A DNA stretch of 64,000 bases, taken from the NCBI GenBank assembly GCA_014885115.2, contig WKLE02000853.1:54626-118625 (forward strand). Reading direction: 5' to 3'. The translations under genes were made by a program, and so were the position numbers. Below the pieces are notes generated by a model that worked only from the letters and a program-made list of their open reading frames with translations, searched no databases and was not told where the DNA came from. This stretch comes from Asterionellopsis glacialis. Lineage: Eukaryota > Bacillariophyta > Plagiogrammaphyceae > Rhaphoneidales > Asterionellopsidaceae. This document shows, piece after piece, positions 42,927 through 59,369 of the stretch (positions are counted from its first letter, which is position 1; the number at the start of each line of letters is the position of its first letter).

Positions 42927-44411
42927 ATGATGAAGAACCAAACCGCTATTCAATCTGCTTTCTACTCACAATCTAGACGAGCCCGAGTGAATAATGATGA
43001 AGGGTCCACGTCCAGCTTAGACGAATTTCTAGGAGACTTTGGCAAAGAATTCTCTGCAGCTTTGCCAAGCATTGTGACTGAAAACGACGAAGCTCGTAAT
43101 GTTGTTGAGGATGCTCGAGACTCATCTACAAACGGTTCCTATTCAGAATCAGATTATGAAACCGATGGATATTCAACAGCGAGTACTAATTACTCGGAAG
43201 AGAAGGAAGGGATCGATTCTTATGTGCTCTCAGGCAGTTATTCGGACACTTGGCAAAAGAACACGGACAATGAGGTACTTTCGAATCGTGGTTCACGTGG
43301 TTCGCGTGGTTCGAGAGAAATGCACTTGAGCGATGGTGAGGAATCCCTTGGAGGATCGACTGACGTTTCAGCAAATTTCGACAATATAGAAAACTTTGAT
43401 GCTGGAGACACTGACGAAGATCAAGAAAATTTATCTGTCGGCTCGAATGATTCACAACTGGTAAAAATGGGTTATCGGTTAGCCAGCAATGATCCGAAAT
43501 TGTCTGAAACGGATATTGTTGTGTCTTCTATGACCCATACTCTGGCTAATGCTATTGCCGATGCTTTGCCGGCAAATTCTAACCTGAAGAAACTCCGCCT
43601 GGTCTTTACTCCAGATGAGGAAGTTCATTACCGTAACTTTCAAATTATGGCAGACAGTATCGAAAGTAACACTTCCATCACAACGATAGAGATATTGAAC
43701 GCCAGGTTGGATCGTAAAGCTTCAGCTATTTTAGGAGCAATGATCTCTCGAAACAGAACAATTAAAAGAATGTGTCTAACTTGTTGTGAATTTATTGCAT
43801 CGGGGCTTGCAATTGTTCTTGTCGGAATGCAACATAATACATCGGTTACAGACCTTGTTATAAAGGCCTGCCAACTTGGCAGTGAGGACATAGATATAGT
43901 AGCTGCCTCACTGCAATTCGTCAAATGGAGGTGTTTAGTGCTCGAGGACGTTAATATTACTCTTGGTGGCATCCGCTTTCTGTTGGACAATATTGAAAAG
44001 AGCCAATATCTCAAAGAGCTTGATCTTTCAAATAACAAGTTAGGTATGAAAGGTGTCAAGTTGCTTGTGTCTGGTTTGCAATCTGAAAACCAAACGCTAG
44101 AAAAGCTTGGATTAGCATACTGTGGACTTAACCATGATGATATTGAGAGATTGGTTAACACTCTTCTAGAAAATCCTACTGTCAAGAGTATTGATCTACG
44201 TGGGAACGAGATTGGGGACCTAGGAGCATTAAGTCTTAAAAAATTGCTTGAACAGAACAAGAAGATTACGGAACTCCATCTTGATGGATGCAAAATCAAT
44301 GAAGAAAAAATGACTCTAATCAAAGACAGACTTTGGCATAATAACTCGTTCTTGAAGTCAATTCTCTCAACAGAATACAGTTTAGCAATCCGAGATCTAA
44401 CATCCCTTTAA
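42927..44411 (+). CDS. Leucine-rich repeat protein (RNI type)
   Basis: A single exon of 494 residues. The first 180 residues are acidic, Ser/Asn-rich and probably disordered. From about 200 onward run RNI-type leucine-rich repeats: KKLRLVFTPDEEV, LKELDLSNNKLGMKG, LEKLGLAYCGLNHDD, VKSIDLRGNEIGDLG and ITELHLDGCKINEE. This repeat type forms horseshoe protein-binding surfaces. No kinase, NACHT or membrane domain is attached, so the protein is probably a soluble adaptor; the partner is unknown. Confidence 0.87.
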   Translation: MMKNQTAIQSAFYSQSRRARVNNDEGSTSSLDEFLGDFGKEFSAALPSIVTENDEARNVVEDARDSSTNGSYSESDYETDGYSTASTNYSEEKEGIDSYVLSGSYSDTWQKNTDNEVLSNRGSRGSRGSREMHLSDGEESLGGSTDVSANFDNIENFDAGDTDEDQENLSVGSNDSQLVKMGYRLASNDPKLSETDIVVSSMTHTLANAIADALPANSNLKKLRLVFTPDEEVHYRNFQIMADSIESNTSITTIEILNARLDRKASAILGAMISRNRTIKRMCLTCCEFIASGLAIVLVGMQHNTSVTDLVIKACQLGSEDIDIVAASLQFVKWRCLVLEDVNITLGGIRFLLDNIEKSQYLKELDLSNNKLGMKGVKLLVSGLQSENQTLEKLGLAYCGLNHDDIERLVNTLLENPTVKSIDLRGNEIGDLGALSLKKLLEQNKKITELHLDGCKINEEKMTLIKDRLWHNNSFLKSILSTEYSLAIRDLTSL

Positions 44412-45102
44412 TAGACAAACCATTAATCAATTTTTCCGCTTTGATTGTTATCATCCTTCGTCCTTTTTCTATACATATGGTACAGGTAGTGGATAGAATT
44501 ATACACATCTCAAGGTGAACTTTACCATGAATCATGTATAGTTATGTAGAAAGTGTTGTGAGGAAAGTTGCATTTTTGCTGTACAAAGGACTGCAACACA
44601 AAGTTCTTTCAAAAAAAATGTGTATTATCCTGTTGCTATTAAGCTTTTGAAGAGCTTTACTAAGTTTCTAGTGCCAAGAGTCATTTTTCAATGTGCATTT
44701 TTGAATGTAGATGAAAGAAAAAGTGGTCAAAATCAAGAACTCTACCTTCAATACCATTAGTAGGCTACCAGAGTCTGGAGGATTGTGTATCTTTGGTTGT
44801 CACTAGTAAAAAAATACTAGCTACTAATGAGGCGATTCACCATTTGCTCTCTCTTTGACTTTTTAGTACTTAGTACANNNNNNNNNNNNNNNNNNNNNNN
44901 NNNNNNNNNNNNNNNNNNNNNNNNNNNNNNNNNCAATTAGTATGCAATACACCAGTAAAAACAGAGGAACAGAAATGATCACACTTTTAAGGTTCCTTTA
45001 AAAGGTTTATACATGTAGACTACGGCATATTTGTGATAGCTATTGCATTTCACTTTCAGTATCAAAGCAGAATTAAATGACAGATAGGGTTTTCTGGTCA
45101 AC
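44412..45102. other. Intergenic region interrupted by assembly gap
   Basis: No gene on either side of the gap. 44412-44877 is the 3' flank of the LRR gene; 44934-45102 is the 3' flank of the EGF-like gene. Confidence 0.5.
44878..44933. other. Assembly gap (56 N)
   Basis: A run of 56 unknown bases. The true distance is not known, so missing sequence or a collapsed repeat may lie here. Confidence 0.99.
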
Positions 45103-46055: not shown

Positions 46056-46575
46056 TTTCTATGGTGTTTCTTTCCCTTGTCCGATTGTGAAAATTCAAGT
46101 CAGATGTTAAACAGCAGAGAGAGAAATATCCACGAGTTCCCCACCGATCAAAGATAAGGAAGCTTGATGGCAACAATACAGGAGTCACAAATAGATAACG
46201 ACAATTGATTTCCCTTGTTTGGTTAACGTAAAAGAACGTTTAAAAACCTCAAAAGAAAGTGTTACTGAACGAGCGAAGAACTTCCAAAATCTTTTTACTA
46301 ATTGTGTGAGAGAGATCTGTCCAACAAGACTGAGAAAGCAGAAAATTTGGAGGGTATCTTAGATACCAGGTACCACGTACAGAATTCACCGTACGCATCC
46401 TTCTTCCTCAATGAAAAAATTTGGCAGGCTTGGGGTTCGCATTGGTGTTCGCCTATAAATACCAGTCTTGGGAATTTTTACGGATTGAAAATTTAATCTC
46501 TAGTCTAAGCATAGAAGCTTAAGGCTAGCGTTAAATCGTGGATATCAGACACACAAGCTGCACGAGTCACATCAC
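46056..46575. other. Upstream region of EGF-like gene
   Basis: Possible unplaced 5' exon of the EGF-like gene. Contains GATACCAGGTACCACGTAC at 46362-46380. The CpG-poor block begins just to the right. Confidence 0.45.
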
Positions 46576-46626
46576 CAAGTTGAATTTTGAAGAAGTATAG
46601 TAAGCTTTATGGTTTTGTGGCTGGTC

Positions 46627-47128
46627 TTATCCTTGCTGCTGCTGTTTTTGCATATGCATCATTGTAGAAGTATACAGATTATGATGATCTGCAGCAGCAT
46701 AAAATCTGACTATTGTTGCAAGTGCACCACCTAAACTGTGACCTGTCAAACATAATTCATATTCTTCATCCACATTAACATCACATTTGTTGCTTTGAAT
46801 GTTGGGGTATACATCATGTAATATAGCAAAAACTTGATTTCCTTTCTTCAAATCCTTGATGCACAAAGATGTCACCCAATTCTGATGGTAAGGGTAATAC
46901 ATGATTATTGCATCATACCATGGGTATTTTTCCATCTTGATCTAAATCATAATTATTATAACTCTCACAAAACACAATAATACATTGTTTGGCTGTATGA
47001 TTCAATGCTATCTCATATACACATTCTCTTTGTATGAGAGGGATGAAGATGCTCCTCATCTTTATGTTACTGCTTTGCCTCAGAAGGAAGGAATGGAATG
47101 CTATTGGTATCCTTTGTCGCAAAAACAT
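46627..47128 (-). pseudogene. Class-3 lipase relic, frameshifted
   Basis: The minus strand carries pieces of an alpha/beta-hydrolase of the lipase class 3 family in different frames. Upstream piece: ECVYEIALNHTAKQCIIVF. Then, in another frame, DIFVHQGFEERK. Then the nucleophile elbow LCLTGHSLGGALATIVRF, with its catalytic-type Ser intact. At least two frame changes separate these pieces, with no splice sites that would reconcile them. The stretch lies within the CpG-poor block and is best read as a decaying gene copy. Whether it was a host gene or cargo of a mobile element is unknown. Confidence 0.7.
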
Positions 47129-50100
47129 GATTAGACATGAGCAAGAAAGAGTTTTTCTCTTTGTGGATCAATTCTAAACTATTTTTTGAATGCCTTTGCT
47201 CCCAATATTTTCTTGTATTATGAATCATAAAGGAAGTTATGACTGGTATTATCCATGGTACTACTGCTAGTGCACAGTAACATGATGAAATGGCAAAGTT
47301 ATTACATAAAAGAATGACAATGATTCTTCTGTGGAATGCAATGAAGGCATGTGTTATGCTGTACTATGTGTTATAAAAGCTGGTTTCTTATGGTCTTCTT
47401 TCATTTGAGTTTGGAGCTACCAAATACAACAAGTCAGCAATGACATTTTTTGGCATGCATGATGGCCTCAGTTAGTGTCTGGTGCCTTTTTCCTTGAAAC
47501 CTATCCAATCAGTAAAAAGTCCTAGTGCCTAAGTGCCAAGGATTTGTCCTCAGCTGAGGACAGACATTATGTATGTGAGCCTGGGTTTATGTGCACAATA
47601 CATACAAATGATTGCACAAAAAATGGACAACAAAATGATGGTAAATGGCTGTTGTAAATGGCAACAGCTCCATGGCAAGAACACAACAAGGAATGTTACT
47701 TCAATATGATATATATAGTAAGACTAGAATTTGGCATGGACAAACCTCTGATCTCAAACTTATAAATCCAGTAGTAGACAAAAGCAAACCTTCTCCATTA
47801 TACTCTAGGCATAATCATTATTGAAAGGGGCATTGGAAAATTCTTGAACTAGAATCACTGATAATTGATGAAATTGTCTTGACAAAGAATCCACACATTA
47901 GGATATCATCCTCTTCTTTTTCAATCCTAAAAATTTGATAATCTTATTCCCCTTCTACTTTCCTCTACATTTAAGATCCTTTTGCACCATCTATAGTAGC
48001 TATCAAGAATATCTTAGATGCATATGACATGTGCTGTGTAAAAATTTGATAGTCCTTCATTATTCACCAACTGCCTCATTAATATATATATATTTTTAAG
48101 ATGTTAGATTTCACAGTTTAATTAAGCCCCATCTCTATGATGACCATGAATTCCCACTCTTTTAACTCATGCCACTTTCCAAAATCAATCACCCGATAAT
48201 ATTGAAATTCCTTAAAAGGACAATCACAATAGTATCTGGTCAGCTACTTTTTATTTTTTGCTAGTAGTAGAGATTAGTCTAGCATCTACATATACAGATC
48301 AATTATTTCTTCCCTTGTCTTGGAGAAAGAAATATTTGAGGCAATAATTTCTTCTGCATGTGTATATCCAGTACATACCAAACACAATACAGGGGTCATC
48401 AGAGTTGTATACTAACCCTTTTTTTTGGTAAAGTACCTGTGAAGCTGAACACTACTTAAGAAAAAAATCTGGTAAACTGTCGTGAATAAGGCCTGTTTAA
48501 ATTCAAGTTGGTGAAATAAATGATTCGCTAGATTTAATAAGGAAATCTGGTTTTCCCTACATCAACTTTTCAACAAATTTCTGTACCAAAAAGATGTATA
48601 ATTACACATATAATAGACTAATATACTAATATTTTGCTACTACTGCATTTCACCATTAGGAAACATCACTGTCTCTATTAGATCACTGTAGAAATGCGGA
48701 TACTCTGTTATTACAAACAAATACTCATATCCATACACAAATTAGTTCTCAATTCCACTAATGTACCATGTACAAGAGGCCTACAACTTACTTAGCTTTG
48801 TACTAATTTACCACGTACTAAAATCTGGTAAAAATAAAATCTCCCTAGGCCTTTTTTTAAGATTTTGGTAAATTAGATGGAATAAGAGACCGGTTTGAGA
48901 CTGGTAAAAATCATTGATTTGCTGGATTTGGTGAAAATCAATGATTACCCCTGTGTACATATATATATAAATTGCAGCAGACTTTTTATGGTGTTGGTAT
49001 CAGTACAGTCTAGCCCCATATTAACATTGGACCTCTTGTGGAATTATTATAAGGAATATGATGTCTGAGGGAAACAAACAACAATTTGCCTCTGTTTGTT
49101 TAAAAGAAAATATTGGCACTATTGATTAATTGTTTTCTTTTGTTCTTATAGCATACTTTGTGTGTTTGGTGACTTATGAGGAGAAAGAAATATATTATCA
49201 TTATGATTGATAAAAATGGTAGCCATAATTCAACAATTTAACATTGAAGGGTACCACAAAAACCATCATCTCTTCTCTGTATTATGGTTTCATTTGTTGT
49301 CTTGATTTTATACCACCTCTGCCAAAAAAACTATATTCACCACTGATTAGAAATTTTGTCTCTCATCCAATAATGACTGCAAACAATAAATATTAAATTA
49401 TCCAATCCAAGGACACCACATATAGAATGCAATATTTTATTTACATTTACTTAGTAGATGAAAGAGAGTTGTGTGTTGATTGAGGTACTTTCACTGTGCC
49501 AAAAATGTGGTTTGTCATGCCCCTACAGGTAGATTTTATTTACACTTGTTACCCATTTTAGCATGCAAACACATCATCAAAATCATGTCAATGGCCAAAA
49601 ACAAGGTAAGAGTAGATCTCCAGCAGACAATGCAGGAAAAATGATTGCACTACTCTACAATAGTCAAACTCAACAAACAATAAAGAAAGTCCACTAGAAG
49701 AATGGACCATGTTTCATAGATTGAATTCAGATACTAAACAAGATTTTTTTTCCTGAGGAGTCATTCATTCTGAACTTGCTTTTCCTTGTTCTATCGCAAT
49801 GCTCTGACAAGAAAAATTAGTAACTTGAGGAATGCTGCTTCTATTTGATTACTGGTGATCCAAGCTTAGGATCATTTTGTTTGCCAATTTTTAATTTTAT
49901 GATCTGCCCTTTAGCCTATTTTTAGTATAAATCAGCATATTTGATTGTTGCAGCTCTATAAGTAATTAAAACATAAGCTTGTTCTAATTTCCACAGTCAT
50001 TGGTGCTCCATATTCTTCAGTAAACTTGGCATGATATGGTATAATGATTGTGTGACAAGCACCAGTTTAGAACAGATTACATAAAAACAGTAAGTAGAAA

Positions 50101-53100
50101 GAAAAATCTATGCAGCAATTAGGGAAAAAATGTAAGAAAATAAGATCAAAAATTCCTGTACACATTGTTCTATGGGAATATTGGTCAGCTGAAATAAAGA
50201 AAACCAAGCTTGTTAAATTTTAGTGTGTGATCTGCTGGTTCAACATTTTGTGTAGTAGAAAACCATGCTATATGGACATTATATACTGGTAAATTTTTTT
50301 AGAACTTAAGGAAGGATACAAAAAAATCAAAACCAAAAAATCAAAATATTGTAAGTATTTCAGTATATTATGACAATTGCGGGAAAGCATATGCAGCACC
50401 CGCCCTTAGTAGTAGTAAGATTTTTGAAAGTGGTAAAAGCTCTAAGGACACTGATAATAATATACTATAATAAAAAGGTGGCGGAGAAAGCTCTATAATT
50501 TATGTTACTGTACTATTAGTACACTATCGGTACTGCTGTCACCATTGCACCACTAGTAGTCATAGTGATGATAAGTGTTAATAGTTCACCCCCCCCTTCC
50601 CAAAATACATATGGGGCAGTGATACCACCATAAAATGTATAAAAAAAGCACCAAAAGGATATAAATTGCATAGCTTGAATATTCCTTGAATCTACCAGCA
50701 TCTATTCTACATGCATCATCATCATGTGGATATGATGGAGCCAGCCTCCACTAGAGATAGTAAGGTCTATAAGTATATTGCATGAGAATGCTGTACTGTG
50801 TGATAAGAAAAAAAAGAAGAAAAAGAGAAAAAAGAAGAAAAAAAATAATAATAAGTTCAAATACATCATGGAAACCAATGCATCCATTATATTATAGTCA
50901 AAAACATTCAATTTTATACATAAGTCTCCAAAATTTATTACAATCCAAAAATGTGCAAGAGAAATTAAATCCAATAATTTTTTGGTTTTTCAACCATTTC
51001 ATTTTTGGTTTTTAACCATATATTTTGATATTTTGATAAACCCTCCATTGAATTTGTACACACACATACATGTCTACAACAAGCACTACTATGTATCCAG
51101 ATTTTTTTCACAGGTTTTTATATCTGGTAAGAACAATCCACTGTGCCTTTTATACTGATGCTTTCATGTTTTCATCTAAAGTATCAACATCCACACAGTT
51201 ATCTTTTTCACTGCTGTAAAATAAGTCATGTTCACCATTATAGTCTTCTCTGTTATTATTTTTTAGATTCCTCCTGCATGCCCCTTCCTCACTTGCTTCA
51301 ACAACTTCACCATTATCTTCATCCACCATTCCTTAATCAGGGTGTTCCTCCATTCTGTCTTTGTACTCTTTATCCCACTCCTTTTTTGCCTTCTTATCTT
51401 TTTGTATCATCTATTAATAGAATACAAATCCTGACTGATGCCACCCACTGTAGGCCTTTTGATGTTTGTTGGTACAAATCTGGACTGATGATATCCTTCA
51501 TATGCCTTTTGATATTTGTCTGTAAACCTTAAATAACTTATCTTTTGCTCTCCACTGTGACCAAACTAGTGTGTATATTTTCCTCATTTATACATCCTCC
51601 TCCCAAATATTATCATACATTAATGTTTATATATAAAGCAGCTTTTTTGGTGGCAAGCTTTCTGTCAGTACTTTATTACACAATCACCCCTATTGAGGAG
51701 GAAAGGTAGAATCAAACTTTGATGAATTAGTACTGATAATACAATAAAATGAGACAGACAACAGTAGGCTTTTTTTGAAAGCAGTATATATTCACTCTAG
51801 TTTTGATTTTTTGCAAATCATATAAGACTCCCAAGTATGTGTCCATTATTTCTATGTTCATTCTTGACAACAACAAGGAAAAGCACATAAGAGAGACCCT
51901 GCTACTTGTCAACTATCTCCAGGTGATGTACATACATAATGGCAAAAGCAAAGGAGGTCACATGTGGATCTTAGTGTTGGCTTTACTACCAGTAGTTGAT
52001 GGCAATGATAAACTTGTTGTTGTTGTTGTTGTGGCTGATCATAGTACTGTTATCATTGTCTCTCATGTGTGTCTCTTTTGGACTTCTTAGTGTTCCTCAT
52101 ATTTTTGTGTAGCCCCCCTGCCCCCCTCAACTAGCACTTTGGCATTCTTTGTTTTCTATTGCAATTGCAGCACTTCTTTGTTGATTTTGAATTTACCTGT
52201 CAATACAATGCTTTATGATTCATGTTTAGGACTCTTTTTTTGAATTTTTGAACCTTAAATACAATATGTCTCACTACTAATTGACTTTCAATATTGATTA
52301 ATTAAACTTCTGTGTTCAAGTACTTGCTAGATGACTATGCCCTAACTAATTTTTTCAAAGCATCCTTAGCATTCACAATTAGACAATTATAAGAGCTAGT
52401 ATTTTTACATTTTGTAATTATGTCCATTAATAAAAAGCAAAACTGCATTTATTTTATGCAGTGACAATAATTAAATGCAATCCTAATTTATTCATATGCA
52501 AATTGTATTATAACCCCCTTTTGGAATATTTATTGAATTTCTTGGTACACTTTCTACATATTTCTATGTAGACTTTGACTGCAATTTTTCAGGGATCTGT
52601 ACTGAATACTACACTAGAAAGATACCTGTTACTGGAAAAAATGAATCAGCCTAATCACAAATTATCACCACCAGTTGCAACAAGGCAATCCCCATGACAT
52701 GGAGTGTTGTAGCAACAATTCACCTTCCATCTTGTGATGAGACTCAAAGTGGCTGGAACTCCATGTTTCTGATAAAACAAGCTTTGTGAGTTTGGAACAA
52801 TGGCAACCAGTGCCACAGGATCTCAAAATTTTGAGGACAGTTGGTTCACATATTAAATCTGAGCATGTGCCAAATATAAGAGCCAACATTATGACAAACA
52901 ACCATCAATAAAACAAAATATTGAGGTAGAAAAATTCATCAATTTTTAAAACATTAAGCATCAATAATATAGAAGAACATGAGAGAGAAACACTCACATT
53001 TGTTCTTAAATCTCTAAAATAGGTTGAATGCTAATCAACAATCTGAGGGAGGAAGGCCAGACTGATGACTAGCATAGTTATAACCTTACTTCTAGAATAT

Positions 53101-53399
53101 ACACAGTAGATTATAGGAGTCTCACAGGCTATAAGCACCTTTATTGCTTCCACCCCCCCCCCAAAAAAACCACCACAGTGGCTTGCCCTCCAGGGAAGGT
53201 AACAAGACACAGGGTTAAAAGTTTGAGTAAACATAGACAGGCAGGGCCATCTTAGACACAGACTTTTCCCCTGTCATTGTCCAAATTGGAAGCTCTGGGA
53301 GCAGTCTGATCTTGGACACTGAAAAATTTTCTGTTTGTAGAAATTTGTACTACATGCTACCTACACTTGCCAATGTGTGCTCAATGCTTGCAACATTTT

Positions 53400-54470
53400 T
53401 CACACATTGTATAATGTTTATTTGTTGGTTACTATTGGTCCAAGTGCCAGAAGTTTGACACTCTTACCATTTCAGATCCCCATTTGGAGCATCCAAATCT
53501 CAAAGAGACCCAAGAGTGGTATGAGTACTCCCACAAGAATGTCCCAAAACCTCTTTTAGCCCATATTGAACAATACACTGTTAAACATGAGTCTACAGGA
53601 AAATTTGCAACACATCATAAGACAATTTGGGAAAATCTTCTTAACAAAAAGATACCCTGATGGCGAAAACACCCATCACAGTATGTTGATGAAATGCTCC
53701 AAACTATCAAAGAATCCAAGATCACTGGAGTTGAATGCGGAGAAGGCAATATCTACAACATTCGGAAAAGGGTGTATATCAACAAGACCACAAAAAAGTG
53801 TGGAAATTACCACCTGATTCCCCATGCCAGGCATCCCCAGCCCCATCTGTACAGGAGGATGATTTCTCTGACATGTCTCCCCCGCCTGGAGCACCACCAG
53901 ATCTGGTTCTTCCACTGTTATTGTTAAGGTCTAGACTGTAGATGTGTAGAAATGTCCTGATACAAAAAAAGGGAGTCAAAAGAGTATAAACTTGAGAAAT
54001 TACAAGATCTTGCACACACATCTGAAGGTGATGTTTTTGCAACAGGAATTTTTTACTGGTGTAACATTTTCTGTCCTATCACATTTCCTTCACCAATCAA
54101 AGTGCACCAAGGATGCCTTCCCCAACCCTGTTAGAGGTCACAGGATTAGAGATTTGATCGTTCTTAGGAAGGAGAAGAAGATAATCAACAGGAAAGAGCA
54201 GTGGGCCATTGTCGTGTGAACAGACCAGATTGTCAACAGTGCTGTGGGGAACTGCATGTGGTGCAAAGGTACTTTAAAGTCACCACAAAAGGTTCTCCTG
54301 CTGGGTTCTTTGATCAAGATGAAAGACAACAAGAAGTGGAGACTCAAAATGATGAACAAAATGAGGGAGGGGAGGAGGAGGAGAAGGTACCAGATGCAGC
54401 AAGACAAGTTAGACCTTGTGGTCAAAATATTGATGACAAGGACAGATTTGAAATTGGAATGACATGAATT
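53400..54470 (+). pseudogene. Unassigned broken coding relic
   Basis: Reading frames change repeatedly, but several stretches look once coding: PNLKETQEWYEYSHKNVPKP, VDEMLQTIKESKITGVE followed by YNIRKRVYINKTTKKCG, a Pro-rich stretch near 53,870, and a Glu/Gln-rich acidic stretch at 54,320-54,400. It lies immediately upstream of the piggyBac-like relic in the same orientation. It may be the N-terminal part of that element or a separate element. I do not recognise a family. Confidence 0.35.
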
Positions 54471-54479
54471 TAGGTAGAT

Positions 54480-55560
54480 GACAACAATGAACCAGCTACT
54501 GAGAATGTACCAGTACCTGGAGGTGAAGAAGATGAGTCACAGGTCTTTGATGAATGGGGGCATACTAGCTCCTGTTATAGGAAGGTGAATGGGCACAGGG
54601 ATACTCAAGCATCAATCCCATTCCTGACTGGTGTTTGTCCAACTATCCTACAGTTGTTTGAGATTTTCTTCATGAAGAACTTTACTTCAAATGTTATTGT
54701 TTCAGAAATCAACAAAACCATCATGGGAGATTCAGTTTCCTATTGAGAGTTCTTGAGGTGGCTTGGCTTGCAGCTCATGATGGGAAGAATTCAAGGTCCT
54801 CAGCAAAGTGATTTTTTGTCAGTTACGCCAGTCACAATCTTCAGTGGAGCACCATTTTGATGCAACAACTTAATGAATAGATCACAATTTGATGCTATCT
54901 TAAACTGTCTTAAGTTTACAGTTAGTGCACCAACAACATATTGTGAGAAGTTTTGGGAGATTTGTGACATAATTGAAGCATGGAATAAAAACATGCAGCA
55001 GAATTTCATTCTGTTGTGGATTAGCTGCCTGGATGAATCCATGTCAATGTGGACAAACAAGTTTACATGTTCTGGCTTCATAATTATTCCCAGGAAACCA
55101 TGGCCTTATGGAAATGAATACCATACTATGTCCTGTGCAACAAGTGACATACTGTAATCTTTGGAATTGGTGGAAGGAAAAGACCAGCCAAAACAAGGTA
55201 AAAAAAAGACAAAGAATTTGATATCATACAGTTGGTCTACTTTTAAGATTGACTAAGCCAATCTGGTATCAATCTAAGACTACCTTTTTGGATATTGGCT
55301 TTTGCATCCTCAAAGGCATTATTGAACTGAAGAAGAAAGGAGTCTATGCTGGTGCTTTGATAAAAAAAGAAGATACTGGCTAAACCTTACTTGTGGTGAT
55401 GAAATTTGTACACAATTTGACAATAAACAAGTTGGTGCTGACACAGATTTTTAGCAGGGCAATCTAGAAGATGCTCCCTTTCATGTCTGCCATGAAAGAG
55501 CCAGACTATCTTAAGTCCATCATGTCTACCTATGGTTCAAATAAACAAAAGGGGGAAAAG
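54480..55560 (+). mobile_element. PiggyBac-like (DDE_Tnp_1_7) transposase relic
   Basis: The series of blocks matches the order of piggyBac-type transposases. FEIFFMKNFTSN and EFLRWLGLQLMMG come first, then MNRSQFDAILNCLKFT. The first conserved Asp lies in WISCLDESMSMWTNKFTC, followed by IIPRKPWPYGNEYHTMSC and ELVEGKDQP. In a second frame come GLLLRLTKPIW, FLDIGFCILKGIIELKKKGV and MKEPDYLKSIMSTYG. Several in-frame stops and at least one frameshift make it inactive. One TGA (after GAPF, about 54,860) falls where I would expect Arg, consistent with CGA-to-TGA decay. Terminal repeats and TTAA target sites were not identified. Confidence 0.78.
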
Positions 55561-56303
55561 GAAACATCACAAAAATGGTAAGAAGGTGGTGAGGAAAACA
55601 AGACAGCACAATTCAAGTAGTATTGTGAAGTGATATACAATCACTTCAGGTACAGACATTCAATTGATGATCACAACTCAAAGAGGTAATCACCCATCAG
55701 CCTTGAAGTTGTGTGGAAGACACAACATTGGCCCTGTTGCATGTTTGCATTCCTCCTTGCTGCAACTGAAGTGAATATGATGCTTGGATTGAACCTTGCC
55801 ACAGGATGTCCATGAGAACCAATGCTTTCTTTTTATTGAAAGCTTGCATAGGTGTTGATTAGCAACCCGTATCTGGAGGAAGAAAGTGAAAGGGATCAAA
55901 GGAGAAGTGCAAGAATTGCCCAAAACTGCTGTCATGAGCTCTTCACTTAGCCCAAAAAAAGTAAATTTGATGGATCAGAGATCATAGTTTCAGCATCCAA
56001 TTATCCTCAAGTGACTTGTATTAGATGCCACAAAAAGATCTGAACCTATTGGTGATGCTTTCCTGGAGTATACCAGTGTGCTCAGTACTTCAATGAGCAC
56101 CTCATTGTATTGCAAAACAAAATTCCATTGTTGGACTGAGTTCAGTCTGTGCAACTTGTCATTTTTTTGTGTACTTTTGGAACAAAAAATCTGCAGGAAA
56201 TAATTAAGTAACACATGGTCACTACTACGTCATCAATGTAGAATTAAATAGAGCTAGATTGAACCCCTTTTAATGAAGTTCTTTTACATTGACCTAGGTC
56301 CAA

Positions 56304-56327
56304 AGTCAGACTGAATTCAGTCTGACT
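56304..56327. repeat. 24-bp perfect palindrome
   Basis: AGTCAGACTGAA and TTCAGTCTGACT form a perfect 24-bp dyad. A related, imperfect GGACTGAGTTCAGTCTG occurs about 170 bp to the left (about 56,134). It could be a foldback-element centre or an element terminus. Confidence 0.75.
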
Positions 56328-57516
56328 GACTGTATACAATCTGGTATTTAAACCTGAGAAATAACCATGAGGAGTGAGATAAAAATTCAGGATAGAGATT
56401 GACTTTTCTCTGCAAGGTGGAGGCTGGCATGTGAAAAAAGGGCAAAAACAGAAACCATTAATTAAATGGGGGGCTTTATCAAGAAATTTGTGTAATTAAA
56501 TGCACTTTATGGAAAAAAAGTCTAATTTTATGGTTTATGTATAATATTATCGATACTTTGGTTTCTGTGGCGTATTTATAAAATTAATTACTTAGTACAT
56601 TATTCTTTATTCTTTTTCACCTACTCCAAGTTTCATGAAATGGTCCAGGATATTTATATCCTTAGCAAAATACCACAATTTGCATTTTTGGAAAGCAAAA
56701 AGAAGAAACATATTTTAGTTGTTGATTTACACCCATCTCTTTGTAACCTCTGGAGATACTTTGCTAAATGGTATTTTTATCTGACATCTGGCACCACTAG
56801 TAGAAAGTGCTCTATTCTCCATACCAAAGTCTGCTGTATACACTTTAAAAGCAATTACAATAGTATATGATTTATTTTATTTTTGGTTTATTGCTATAGT
56901 GTGCAACATTGTGCATGTGGAGTATTTCAGACACTCTTAGATGACACTCATAGCGTGTTCTCTCCACCCATCAAAGGCCAGTCATGTAGATGTGGGTCAG
57001 AATCAAGGAGGAGATACCAAAGGAAGGAACTCCATTATCTTGTGTGAAAAGAAACCTTCAAACTAGATGCAAAGCCACTGCAGCAGTACTGTAAGTTTTG
57101 GCTCTCTTTTCTCTCCTTTTACCAACAACAACGAAAAAAAAACAATACTCGTTTAAAAATTGTTAATAAGCTGTGCTCAAAAAATATTTTTCTAGAGTGC
57201 TTAAAATATAGATTCCTAATGGACTCATGGTAGTTTCTCCACCACTTCATGTAACGTAGGCTTTTCTTCTATTATTTGAGTGAACCATCTTCTCAAAAGT
57301 TATGCTTTGTGCAGTATTGCATGAACTAGGGGACACACAAATGCGATTGAGATCGAGCCTTTTACGTCACGAAGAAAAAGTGAAATCAGTCTCAAGTCGA
57401 CGCAGCACTTTTACGAAAAAGCATGATTTCCGGCGTCCAAAATCTCAAAGACTGTTTTTATTCAAACTATAATACTCAGCAGCATTCGCAAACCATTTTA
57501 GTGCACCATCTTGTAT

Positions 57517-58590
57517 CTAATGGTCATCCGCAAGGCACCCCATTATTTTTGCATACATTTTCATATCTATGTTCCCTCCACTAGCTACCACTGCAACCGC
57601 TTTCCCAGGATTCACTTTTACTTGACCGTCAAGTATAGCAGCTAAACCTAGTGCCCCCGATGGCTCTAACACCAAACGATAATTTTCAAAAGCAAATGCC
57701 ATAGCTCTAGCAACACTTTCATCCCCTAAAGAAGCCAAAGCATCCGCAAGTCTTGGACCATTGATGGACCAAGTAATCTCTCCAGGGGCACCAGCCATGA
57801 GCGCATCGCAAGCAACCGATCTTTCAGGAGGGGGAACAGGATAAACGTCAGCCAACGACAAACGCTGTCTTCCCTCCGACAAGAACGAACGAAGGTGGTC
57901 ATCATAACCTGCCGGTTCGATTGTAATAACATTCGGTCTCGACGCAGCTGATTCGACTGAAAGGTTGATGCCTGCTGTCAAACCACCTCCGCCACATGGT
58001 ACGACAATAGATTCAAGCTGACTTTCGTTTGAATCAAGCATTTCCTTTGCTTGTTCAAGCAACTCAATACCAACTGTCCCTTGGCCATGGACGACATCGA
58101 CATCTTCGAACGGGTGAAGAAGTGTCATGCCGAATTCATCAGATATCGACTTTGCCATTCCAGAGGCAGCCACTTCTCGGTTGGTCCCTCCAGGTGCCTC
58201 GGACAGGTGCAACTTCGCGCCAAAACGTTTGATCCGATCAAGCTTCACTCTTGGAGCATCGTGAGGACTAACAATTGCACACGTCACCCCGAGCGATGTT
58301 GCAGCAGCAGCTAGAGCCTGCCCAAAATTTCCCGAGCTGAACGCTACAACACCCCGTTGGGCCGCTTCTCTATCATCTTCGACCAATCTAAGCAGCCGAT
58401 GCAGTGCACCGCGGTACTTGAAACTATTTGTCGTTTGAAGACATTCGGCTTTGATTAAGAGCCTGCGCCCCTCACCGCCAAGAATGGACTCGTTCACGAG
58501 TTTCGACTCTAAAAGGGGTGTTCTTACAACTAAAGGACGGAGAAGAGACGAAGCAGCTAGAACTCCAGCAGGTGTTGGGAGTGGTACCAT
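57517..58590 (-). CDS. PLP-dependent threonine/serine dehydratase-like enzyme (fold type II)
   Basis: Family members deaminate L-Thr or L-Ser to 2-oxo acids, or racemise Ser. 357 residues from ATG 58590; the frame continues upstream only to a GTG, and the chosen start gives a normal-length N-terminus ending VVRTPLLESK. Schiff-base Lys58 sits in NSFKYRGA, SSGNFGQA (85-92) binds the substrate carboxylate, GGGG (200-203) is the PLP phosphate loop, and ASGGN near the C-terminus contacts the pyridine ring. There is no C-terminal ACT regulatory domain, so it is the catabolic or serine-racemase type rather than biosynthetic IlvA. No plastid leader. Its 3' end lies about 280 bp from the CpG-poor block yet it has normal CpG content. 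Confidence 0.88.
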   Translation of the reverse strand: MVPLPTPAGVLAASSLLRPLVVRTPLLESKLVNESILGGEGRRLLIKAECLQTTNSFKYRGALHRLLRLVEDDREAAQRGVVAFSSGNFGQALAAAATSLGVTCAIVSPHDAPRVKLDRIKRFGAKLHLSEAPGGTNREVAASGMAKSISDEFGMTLLHPFEDVDVVHGQGTVGIELLEQAKEMLDSNESQLESIVVPCGGGGLTAGINLSVESAASRPNVITIEPAGYDDHLRSFLSEGRQRLSLADVYPVPPPERSVACDALMAGAPGEITWSINGPRLADALASLGDESVARAMAFAFENYRLVLEPSGALGLAAILDGQVKVNPGKAVAVVASGGNIDMKMYAKIMGCLADDH

Positions 58591-59369
58591 TGCAAAAACG
58601 GTTATCGCGCAACCTATTGTAGAGAGAACAAGGATCGGTGACTGCCGTAGAGAAAGAACAAAAGGAAAGACAAAGATGAGCACTCAAAAATAGTCAACAT
58701 GTGCACCCCTGTGATTAAGATTGTATCTTGTACACTCAAGGGCGGCAGTTCTTCTGACTGGTAGGACCTAGTCTAATACTCCAAGGAGTGCGGTATTCTT
58801 TTTCTTGTAGATGTTGTATTTCAAACGATCGAAATTCCTGATGTCCGACGGTATTATTTTATTCCAACACAGTGCAGCCCTCTAGAGAAAGGTTCCAACA
58901 AGTACAATGGGATCTAGGGATTGTCCTCGGTTGAAGTGCCGAACGAGCTCCAAACAGGGCCCTGACTAATAAACAAAAATAAAAGATAAGAAAGGGCTCA
59001 ATTCGCATAAACTTTTTGAATTTCCTTTGTTCGGCAGGGCGATTCTCTAATCATTTCTCATCAAGCGGAATACTTCTGGATCTCCATGTACTAGCTCCCC
59101 TTCGTGTTTGGCCTCAAACTGCAACACTTCATCAGTCGATGCTGAGTCACAATGTCGTATTAACAATGCTATGCTATAGAAGTTATTTGTTGTATTATGT
59201 ATTATTCATATCTGTGCACTATTCAGCTGAGCTGAGTTCTCTAAACGTTGTCCCCCGTCAGAGTCGAGATTCTTTATAGTTTCTTTGACATAACTGCTTA
59301 AAAATTTATGAGCGACATTTCTTCTTCCACTAGACGAGTCCACAAGGACGAGCAAGCACTAGACCTATT
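58591..59369. other. Intergenic region
   Basis: No gene found. TAGGACCTAG at about 58,763 is another copy of the dispersed motif. Promoter of the dehydratase gene and 3' flank of the RING gene. Confidence 0.5.

Follow-up and report, generated by a model that had tools for sequence, protein, structure and literature searches.

A block of 10,665 bp (46,576–57,240) within a 64-kb window, by which is meant the whole stretch of DNA analyzed, has lost nearly all of its CpG dinucleotides. The source genome looks like that of a diatom: among the 120 listed of 496 hits for a tocopherol cyclase ORF, the named ones include Attheya, Mayamaea, Odontella, Chaetoceros tenuissimus, Seminavis, and Epithemia at 50–57% identity, the two best hits reaching 64% and 62%. 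From the evidence of its sequence, this block is very probably an old nest of transposable elements, together with a gene fragment, that the host has kept methylated at CG sites and in which CpG has decayed to near mutational equilibrium. As a methylated transposon island it fits, in what is the best reading, the prediction from known diatom methylomes. The underlying process is already established, and the block is a very clean example of it.

Extent and edges of the CpG desert

In the block, 26 CpG are observed against 333 expected from composition (O/E 0.08), with TpG and CpA raised to O/E 1.43 and 1.34, respectively. CpG accounts for 26 of the 1,713 CG/TG/CA sites, whereas the flank rate would give 355 (binomial log10 P ~ −131). 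The preliminary description of this DNA had proposed that CpG O/E be examined together with any TpG and CpA excess, and the two agree: about 251 CpG are missing and 281 TpG and CpA are present above flank levels. Its report of ordinary CpG density on both sides also holds, with flank O/E values of 0.82 and 0.90. Because CpG O/E in the flanks is nearly the same outside open reading frames of at least 150 amino acids as inside them (0.82 versus 0.83), the desert does not represent ordinary intergenic composition.

A two-state HMM, whose two rates were taken from the block itself and its flanks, recovers the desert as a single segment (46,568–57,129) containing 24 CG among 1,704 CG/TG/CA sites. 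The longest CpG-free gaps of the window, from 50,528 to 53,664 (3,136 bp) and from 47,118 to 48,194 (1,076 bp), lie where the CpG-free stretches had been placed earlier (about 3.1 kb at 50,530–53,663, and 47,119–48,193). The longer of these, a 3.1-kb run (50,529–53,663) spanning 499 CG/TG/CA sites, is longer than even the mean rate of the desert itself would lead one to expect, as a fraction of only 0.0042 of 5,000 permutations reaches such a length.

The most interesting feature of the block is the sharpness of its edges, both of which are abrupt in a 150-bp profile, at 150-bp resolution. At the left edge, CG makes up 6 of the 23 CG/TG/CA sites in the 150 bp outside and 0 of the 29 in the 150 bp inside; at the right edge, the inner 150 bp has no CG among 23 such sites and the outer 150 bp has 3 among 17. 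The sharp sequence edge may mark a chromatin boundary, as suggested earlier, or may be a breakpoint. The HMM places the right edge at 57,129/57,132, ~385 bp from the 3′ end of the adjoining gene, in place of the “~280 bp” first given as the distance to a live gene. This neighbor (57,517–58,683, minus strand) is an open gene of ordinary CpG density for a predicted PALP-family pyridoxal-phosphate enzyme, with its 3′ end toward the desert. The left neighbor is an open reading frame for a leucine-rich repeat (LRR) protein (42,927–44,411, plus strand). It is a tentative and rather doubtful proposal that these edges have stayed fixed for as long as CpG decay needs to saturate, which, if they are not recent breakpoints, would mean a methylation boundary passed on through a great many cell divisions with a precision of roughly 150 bp. 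If true, so stable a boundary would call for a dedicated boundary element or mechanism beside active genes, and the methylation domains of uncultured algae would be readable from sequence alone.

Composition of the block and direction of its decay

As judged by homology, the block is a mosaic of repeats that also occur in the rest of the genome, a lipase-like fragment, and the remains of a piggyBac-type transposase; no intact gene was recognized in it. Four repeat parts were recognized in it. The class 3 lipase-like piece (46,630–46,941, minus strand) is open over 104 amino acids, matches positions 60–91 of the PF01764 profile, and ends close to where the desert begins on the left; its relatives in the genome share 40% identity over 47 amino acids and 53% over 32, and no close copy was found. 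A repeat of ~567 bp (48,388–48,954) recurs many times in the genome, in full or in part, the best copy being 90% identical. Another (51,514–52,970) is shared at 84% identity with a second contig (C179:31724-33206), with no CpG in the window copy and three in the other. A third repeat, of ~866 bp (53,044–53,909), is the one for which CpG-bearing copies are available. The transposase relic (54,651–55,776, plus strand) is recognized from two matches to DDE_Tnp_1_7 (PF13843) with nine internal stop codons in all, and its nearest DNA copy found, on contig C963, is 84% identical; PF13843 is matched also in one open piece. Typical piggyBac ends are terminal inverted repeats with a TTAA target duplication. 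A search of the block for tandem and internal repeats yielded three rows of low complexity, along with numerous direct and inverted pairs, short and imperfect, that look like chance, and an Rfam scan of the window gave no matches. Searches of the same genome returned 51 other rows for 46,577–53,200 and 15 for 53,201–56,200, with parts of the block lacking any match.

The direction of change is given by one 866-bp repeat and two relatives, on contigs C799 (29 CpG) and C932 (18 CpG, the copy being truncated by the contig end). At the 29 CpG of the first, the window copy has 14 TG, 9 CA, 2 TA, 3 other dinucleotides, 1 gap, and no CG; at the 18 of the second, it has 7 TG, 5 CA, 1 TA, 5 others, and again no CG. 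Eleven other dinucleotides are kept at 61–94% and 57–88% in the two comparisons. With no CpG of the C799 copy kept, 23 of them now being plain TpG or CpA, and the other dinucleotides largely conserved, CpG has decayed, and has done so in CG context. The window copy carries four CpG, none in common with either relative. The two relatives are 91% identical to each other and have 11 CpG in common, of which the window keeps none (4 TG, 4 CA, 1 TA, and 2 other), so that the change is polarized.

The decay is also specific to CG, since transitions concentrate there and not at CHG or CHH. C→T or G→A changes to the window copy affect 28 of 56 CG, 3 of 61 CHG, and 22 of 249 CHH positions from C799, and 14 of 36, 6 of 57, and 21 of 220, respectively, from C932. 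Over all pairs, the transition fractions are 0.075 for CA, 0.069 for CT, 0.106 for AC, 0.12 for TC, 0.167 for CC, 0.198 for GC, and 0.66 for CG, the CC and GC values including C and G that also lie within CpG. Between the two witness copies (L055 and L056) there are likewise sites with CG in one and TG or CA in the other, so that the witnesses are themselves decaying. Other comparisons (L051, L014, and L052–L054) involve relatives that are already CpG-poor and say little on direction; among three copies of the 567-bp repeat, that of the window has more CpG (five) than its relatives (three each).

Methyltransferase genes and the origin of the CpG loss

Methylated cytosine deaminates to thymine, which would account for the near-total conversion of CpG to TpG or CpA. 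CG methylation of the nest would be upheld by the host, with DNMT5-type maintenance as the most likely route; deamination would turn nearly every CpG of the nest into TpG or CpA; and CpG loss and gain would approach balance at an O/E of ~0.08, so that the island is probably near CpG equilibrium. If equilibrium holds, the 26 remaining CpG point to a C→T rate raised ~18-fold (bootstrap 11–35), as compared with 1.4 in the flanks, an estimate that presupposes both equilibrium and a simple two-rate model. An acceleration of this size falls in the range for 5-methylcytosine. The preliminary description had read the block as a silenced, methylated island. Of this, CpG loss by deamination is well supported by the TpG and CpA excess, the CG-only loss, the CpG-bearing relatives, and the methyltransferase genes of the genome, and it would follow from the same reading that the cytosines of the block were, and presumably still are, methylated and that the island is “silent” in transcription.

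Two DNMT5-like genes are found in the genome by homology of separate frames. One (contig C1019) has Tudor and DNMT domains followed by a frame with an SNF2 part; the other (C368, 45.4–50 kb) has a DNMT frame and then one with SNF2. In both, the PF00145 and PF00176 frames are consecutive on one strand, and pieces of both match chain 7r76_A, named “DNA repair protein Rad8” by its depositors, which we take to be Cryptococcus Dnmt5. The successive frames probably form one gene in each case, and DNMT5 may well perform the methylation of the block.

Possible candidates for a RID-type methyltransferase, as judged by homology, are C398 and C44. The first is a chromodomain DNMT that resembles chains named DNA (cytosine-5)-methyltransferase 1, its chromodomain being borderline (24.9 bits, just below the 25.1 cut-off). 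With such a gene in the genome and mutated DNA that is largely repeats, a RIP-like burst might be considered, in which duplicated DNA is mutated C→T at once, for example by a RID/DNMT4-like enzyme, and not by slow decay of methylated sites. Classical RIP favors CpA. Here, the changes sit in CG context and the CpA transition fraction is not raised; moreover, the CpG-free sequence includes the lipase-like fragment, for which no near copy turned up and which a process triggered by duplicates would spare unless the fragment had been carried in. A possible grouping of diatom DNMT4 with fungal RID, of moderate support in PMC9998398, adds to the case for such a burst, which is nevertheless improbable.

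CpG-poor DNA in the source genome and in other diatoms

The block is typical for its source genome. Among the 43 piggyBac-type matches listed, the 20 that were cut out, including the window's own and two that adjoin on one contig (L013 and L017), are all CpG-poor, with CG/(CG+TG+CA) at or below 0.079 in 20 of 20 (median 0.027); for 136 tiles taken from other regions, each of 800 bp, the median is 0.186. The loss of CpG, previously described as “unusually complete,” is thus so relative to the flanks and not relative to these 20 matches, 19 of them elsewhere. A second desert was found in one of 12 other regions examined (L043, 860–7371), where Pfam gave nothing significant on three open pieces.

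This recurrence bears on two further explanations. The abrupt edges and the lower GC of the block (0.353 versus 0.416 and 0.437 in the flanks) might suggest recent insertion of CpG-suppressed foreign DNA from a virus or another organism, and suppression before arrival had been offered earlier as the alternative. Several of the block's repeats recur in the same genome, one with CpG-bearing copies, and other contigs hold similar deserts; foreign insertion is therefore disfavored and very unlikely, although it may apply to those parts of the block that lack a match. An assembly chimera, with repeat DNA from elsewhere joined between two genes, might be suspected in a genome of 1,503 contigs, some with N runs, and from the sole N run of the window, a 56-N gap at 44,878–44,933 that lies 1.6 kb from the desert on its left side. 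There is, however, no N in the block or at either edge; transitions from desert to gene-like sequence also occur inside other contigs (such as L043, L003, L004, L006, and L010), and joining would relocate a desert and not create one, leaving a chimera with very little probability. Least probable of all is drift of AT-rich neutral DNA without methylation, for although the block is AT-richer and has no recognized intact gene, its GpC O/E is 0.99, the non-ORF flanks retain CpG, and the CG-specific loss seen against C799 and C932 contradicts it.

Methylated transposons of vertebrates and other eukaryotes decay from CpG to TpG or CpA in the same CG-specific manner. Unlike vertebrate-type decay, the loss here is near-total, with 3.1 kb lacking any CpG, and is confined to sharp-edged islands instead of extending genome-wide. 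The DNMT5-type genes with an SNF2 part are like the system of Phaeodactylum tricornutum in which transposon methylation depends on DNMT5a; there, according to PMC9998398, loss of DNMT5a correlates with global loss of methylation, and DNMT4 and DNMT5b are reported absent. The same paper describes Tudor domains in some DNMT5b and a chromodomain in nine diatom DNMT4, types that two genes here match by homology only. In the diatom Cyclotella cryptica, methylation falls mostly at CpG, and genic DNA with essentially none lies beside repeat blocks that are hypermethylated over as much as 30 kb (PMC5124317). Those blocks are likewise repeat-rich and beside gene-rich DNA, but methylation was measured there, whereas the present evidence is a mutational footprint alone in another genome.

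A literature search, judged mostly by titles and carrying no claim that the observation is unpublished, returned no title on near-complete CpG loss in diatom transposons. These results suggest that, in the source genome, raw sequence may separate long-methylated from unmethylated domains (O/E 0.08 versus ~0.8, with edges placed to ~150 bp), so that long-term methylation domains and the stability of their boundaries could be mapped in diatoms known from assemblies alone.

A separate observation concerns nucleosome spacing: in gene-rich sequence, CpG autocorrelation displays, with no significance estimate attached, a weak and broad rise at ~140–190 bp.

Extent and content of the CpG-poor block

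The preliminary description placed a CpG desert of some ten kilobases over transposon relics in the window, and the shortage is real. Composition alone would give 333 CpG across 46,576-57,240; 26 are observed (O/E 0.08), compared with O/E values of 0.82 and 0.90 in the flanks, and uninterrupted CpG-free runs are found at the positions reported (50,528-53,664 and 47,118-48,194). The excess of TpG and CpA proposed there as a check on deamination is also present (O/E 1.43 and 1.34, respectively), while the same-letter control GpC stands at 0.99. Because flanking non-ORF DNA has a CpG O/E of 0.82 and flanking ORFs 0.83, the depletion is not an intergenic effect.

The edges are sharp. A two-state HMM on CG among CG, TG and CA sites, with both rates derived from the desert and flanks themselves, marks 46,568-57,129 as the window's single low segment, where CG accounts for 24 of 1,704 sites (0.014, versus 0.207 in the flanks). 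In 150-bp bins, CG falls from 6 of 23 sites to 0 of 29 on entering at the left edge; at the right edge, the inner bin has 0 of 23 and the outer bin 3 of 17. This sharpness is of interest, as the edges may represent either the junction of an insertion or a boundary of methylation long inherited in place. On the left, a fragment of a class 3 lipase-like gene, on the minus strand, ends close to the edge and suggests a junction; the relatives found for it share 40% identity along 47 residues and 53% along 32. The desert contains no N run; the only one in the window, 56 N at 44,878-44,933, falls within a low-CpG kilobase (44,001-45,000; O/E 0.33, with a CpG-free gap of 374 bp) at the 3' end of an LRR ORF, which was not called as desert.

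DNA comparison against its own genome resolves the desert into a mosaic of repeats: a 567-bp repeat (48,388-48,954), a 1.46-kb repeat (51,514-52,970), an 866-bp repeat (53,044-53,909), and a piggyBac-type transposase relic (54,651-55,776) matched in two pieces with stops in each. Further stretches, among them most of 49.0-51.2 kb, have no long match in that comparison. The longest CpG-free run spans 499 sites. Even with the mean rate of the desert itself, 5,000 permutations average 256 and reach that length in a fraction of 0.0042, so the run exceeds expectation, and age or methylation may vary among the components of the mosaic. The window itself (C368:54,626-118,625, in a 40.3-Mb genome of 1,503 contigs) carries, near the desert, genes for a tocopherol cyclase, cactin, SAC3/GANP, a PALP enzyme and helicase-associated repeats; among the 120 matches listed of 496 to the tocopherol cyclase, diatom relatives are 50-57% identical and the top two reach 64% and 62%. 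The source is taken to be a diatom.

CG-specific decay in the 866-bp repeat

Two CpG-bearing relatives of the 866-bp repeat provide a view of how CpG was lost. The copy on contig C799 (L056, C799:89691-90542) has 29 CpG (O/E 0.71) and that on C932 (L055, C932:9884-10619) has 18 (O/E 0.51), against 4 in the window copy (O/E 0.10-0.12 over the aligned parts). At the positions of the 29, the window copy has 14 TG, 9 CA, 2 TA, 3 other dinucleotides, 1 gap and no CG; at those of the 18, it has 7 TG, 5 CA, 1 TA, 5 other and again no CG. Away from CpG, conservation of eleven other dinucleotides relative to the window ranges from 61 to 94% for C799 and from 57 to 88% for C932. Transitions at C or G are concentrated in the CpG context, both from C799 to the window (28/56 in CpG, 3/61 in CHG, 22/249 in CHH) and from C932 (14/36, 6/57 and 21/220). 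None of the 11 CpG common to the two relatives is kept in the window copy, and at sites where the relatives agree, transitions affect 10 of 22 shared CpG positions versus 18 of 241 non-CpG C or G. Judged from these fates and context-wise transitions, the loss is a CG-specific decay of one-time CpG.

Deamination of methylated CpG to TpG and CpA, the mechanism offered in the preliminary description, is the best explanation, and the alternative raised alongside it, that the DNA was CpG-suppressed before arrival, is disfavoured. The ratio of TpG plus CpA to CpG implies, under a simple model with equilibrium assumed, a mutation rate for C in CpG about 18-fold that of other C (bootstrap 11-35; 1.4 in the flanks). 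As such acceleration is within range for 5-methylcytosine deamination, an exotic mutator is unnecessary.

The remaining repeat comparisons use CpG-poor relatives and are uninformative on the direction of change; in the comparisons with the three copies of the 567-bp repeat, for example, the window copy has 5 CpG against 3 in each relative. Where a CpG is private to one of the two relatives of the 866-bp repeat, the counterpart is mostly TG or CA, as if these copies were at an early stage of decay.

Similar depletion elsewhere in the genome

Within this genome the desert looks typical rather than special. Among the best 20 of 43 piggyBac-type (DDE_Tnp_1_7) matches, one being the window's own and two being neighbours on C1267, the CG fraction never exceeds 0.079 (median 0.027), versus a median of 0.186 in 136 comparison tiles, each of 800 bp, taken from other regions. 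Of these 20 loci, 19 yield a low segment in the HMM, the exception (L015) being a match near a contig end; so does one of two reverse-transcriptase loci (L002), and so do none of 15 partly overlapping loci (L023-L037) from methyltransferase gene surroundings and just upstream of the window. Of 13 further 10-kb regions, a non-random set from contigs with a transposon or methyltransferase match elsewhere on them, one was all N and two had more than 1 kb of N; one of the 12 with letters, L043, has a low segment, and all eight of the 136 tiles below 0.05 lie in L043. This second desert (L043:860-7371, or C528:20860-27371; about 6.5 kb) retains CG at 10 of 943 sites, a residual fraction nearly equal to that in the window (0.011 versus 0.014), and a family search of three of its open pieces recognised none. 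One piggyBac-type match, L004 (C706:61761-62870), is free of internal stops yet has CG at only 1 of 214 CG/TG/CA sites, so either CpG can be lost sooner than the reading frame is broken, or selection acts on the frame.

Methyltransferase genes and known methylation landscapes

PF00145 matches number eight in the genome, at six places. Two genes are DNMT5-like by homology, one on C1019 (a Tudor domain, a DNMT domain, then an SNF2 frame) and one at about 45,400-50,000 on C368 (L036; DNMT, then an SNF2 frame); pieces of both match chain 7r76_A, named Rad8 by its depositors, which we take to be Cryptococcus Dnmt5. The latter is on the window's own contig but outside the window, with 51-56 kb between it and the left edge of the desert downstream, a proximity that is probably coincidental. 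C398 encodes a borderline chromodomain with a DNMT domain, the nearest chains being named DNA (cytosine-5)-methyltransferase 1, C466 a DNMT2-like protein, and C597 and C44 further methylases. This set, predicted from sequence, fits the published diatom repertoire, which includes DNMT5a and DNMT5b, with Tudor domains in some DNMT5b and a chromodomain in some DNMT4 (PMC9998398).

The desert is a clean case of a known phenomenon. Methylation in Cyclotella cryptica is mainly at CpG, and repeat blocks that are hypermethylated over as much as 30 kb alternate with genic blocks that have essentially none (PMC5124317); in P. tricornutum, DNMT5a loss is correlated with global methylation loss and overexpression of young transposons (PMC9998398). 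The block in the window is the long-term trace to be expected of such a landscape, seen here as a footprint in sequence. A limited literature search returned no title that deals with nearly complete loss of CpG from diatom transposons, and no priority is claimed. In gene-rich loci and the window's flanks, CpG autocorrelation has a weak, broad rise at about 140-190 bp, which could be noise from the structure of the genes or else point to genic methylation spaced by nucleosomes.
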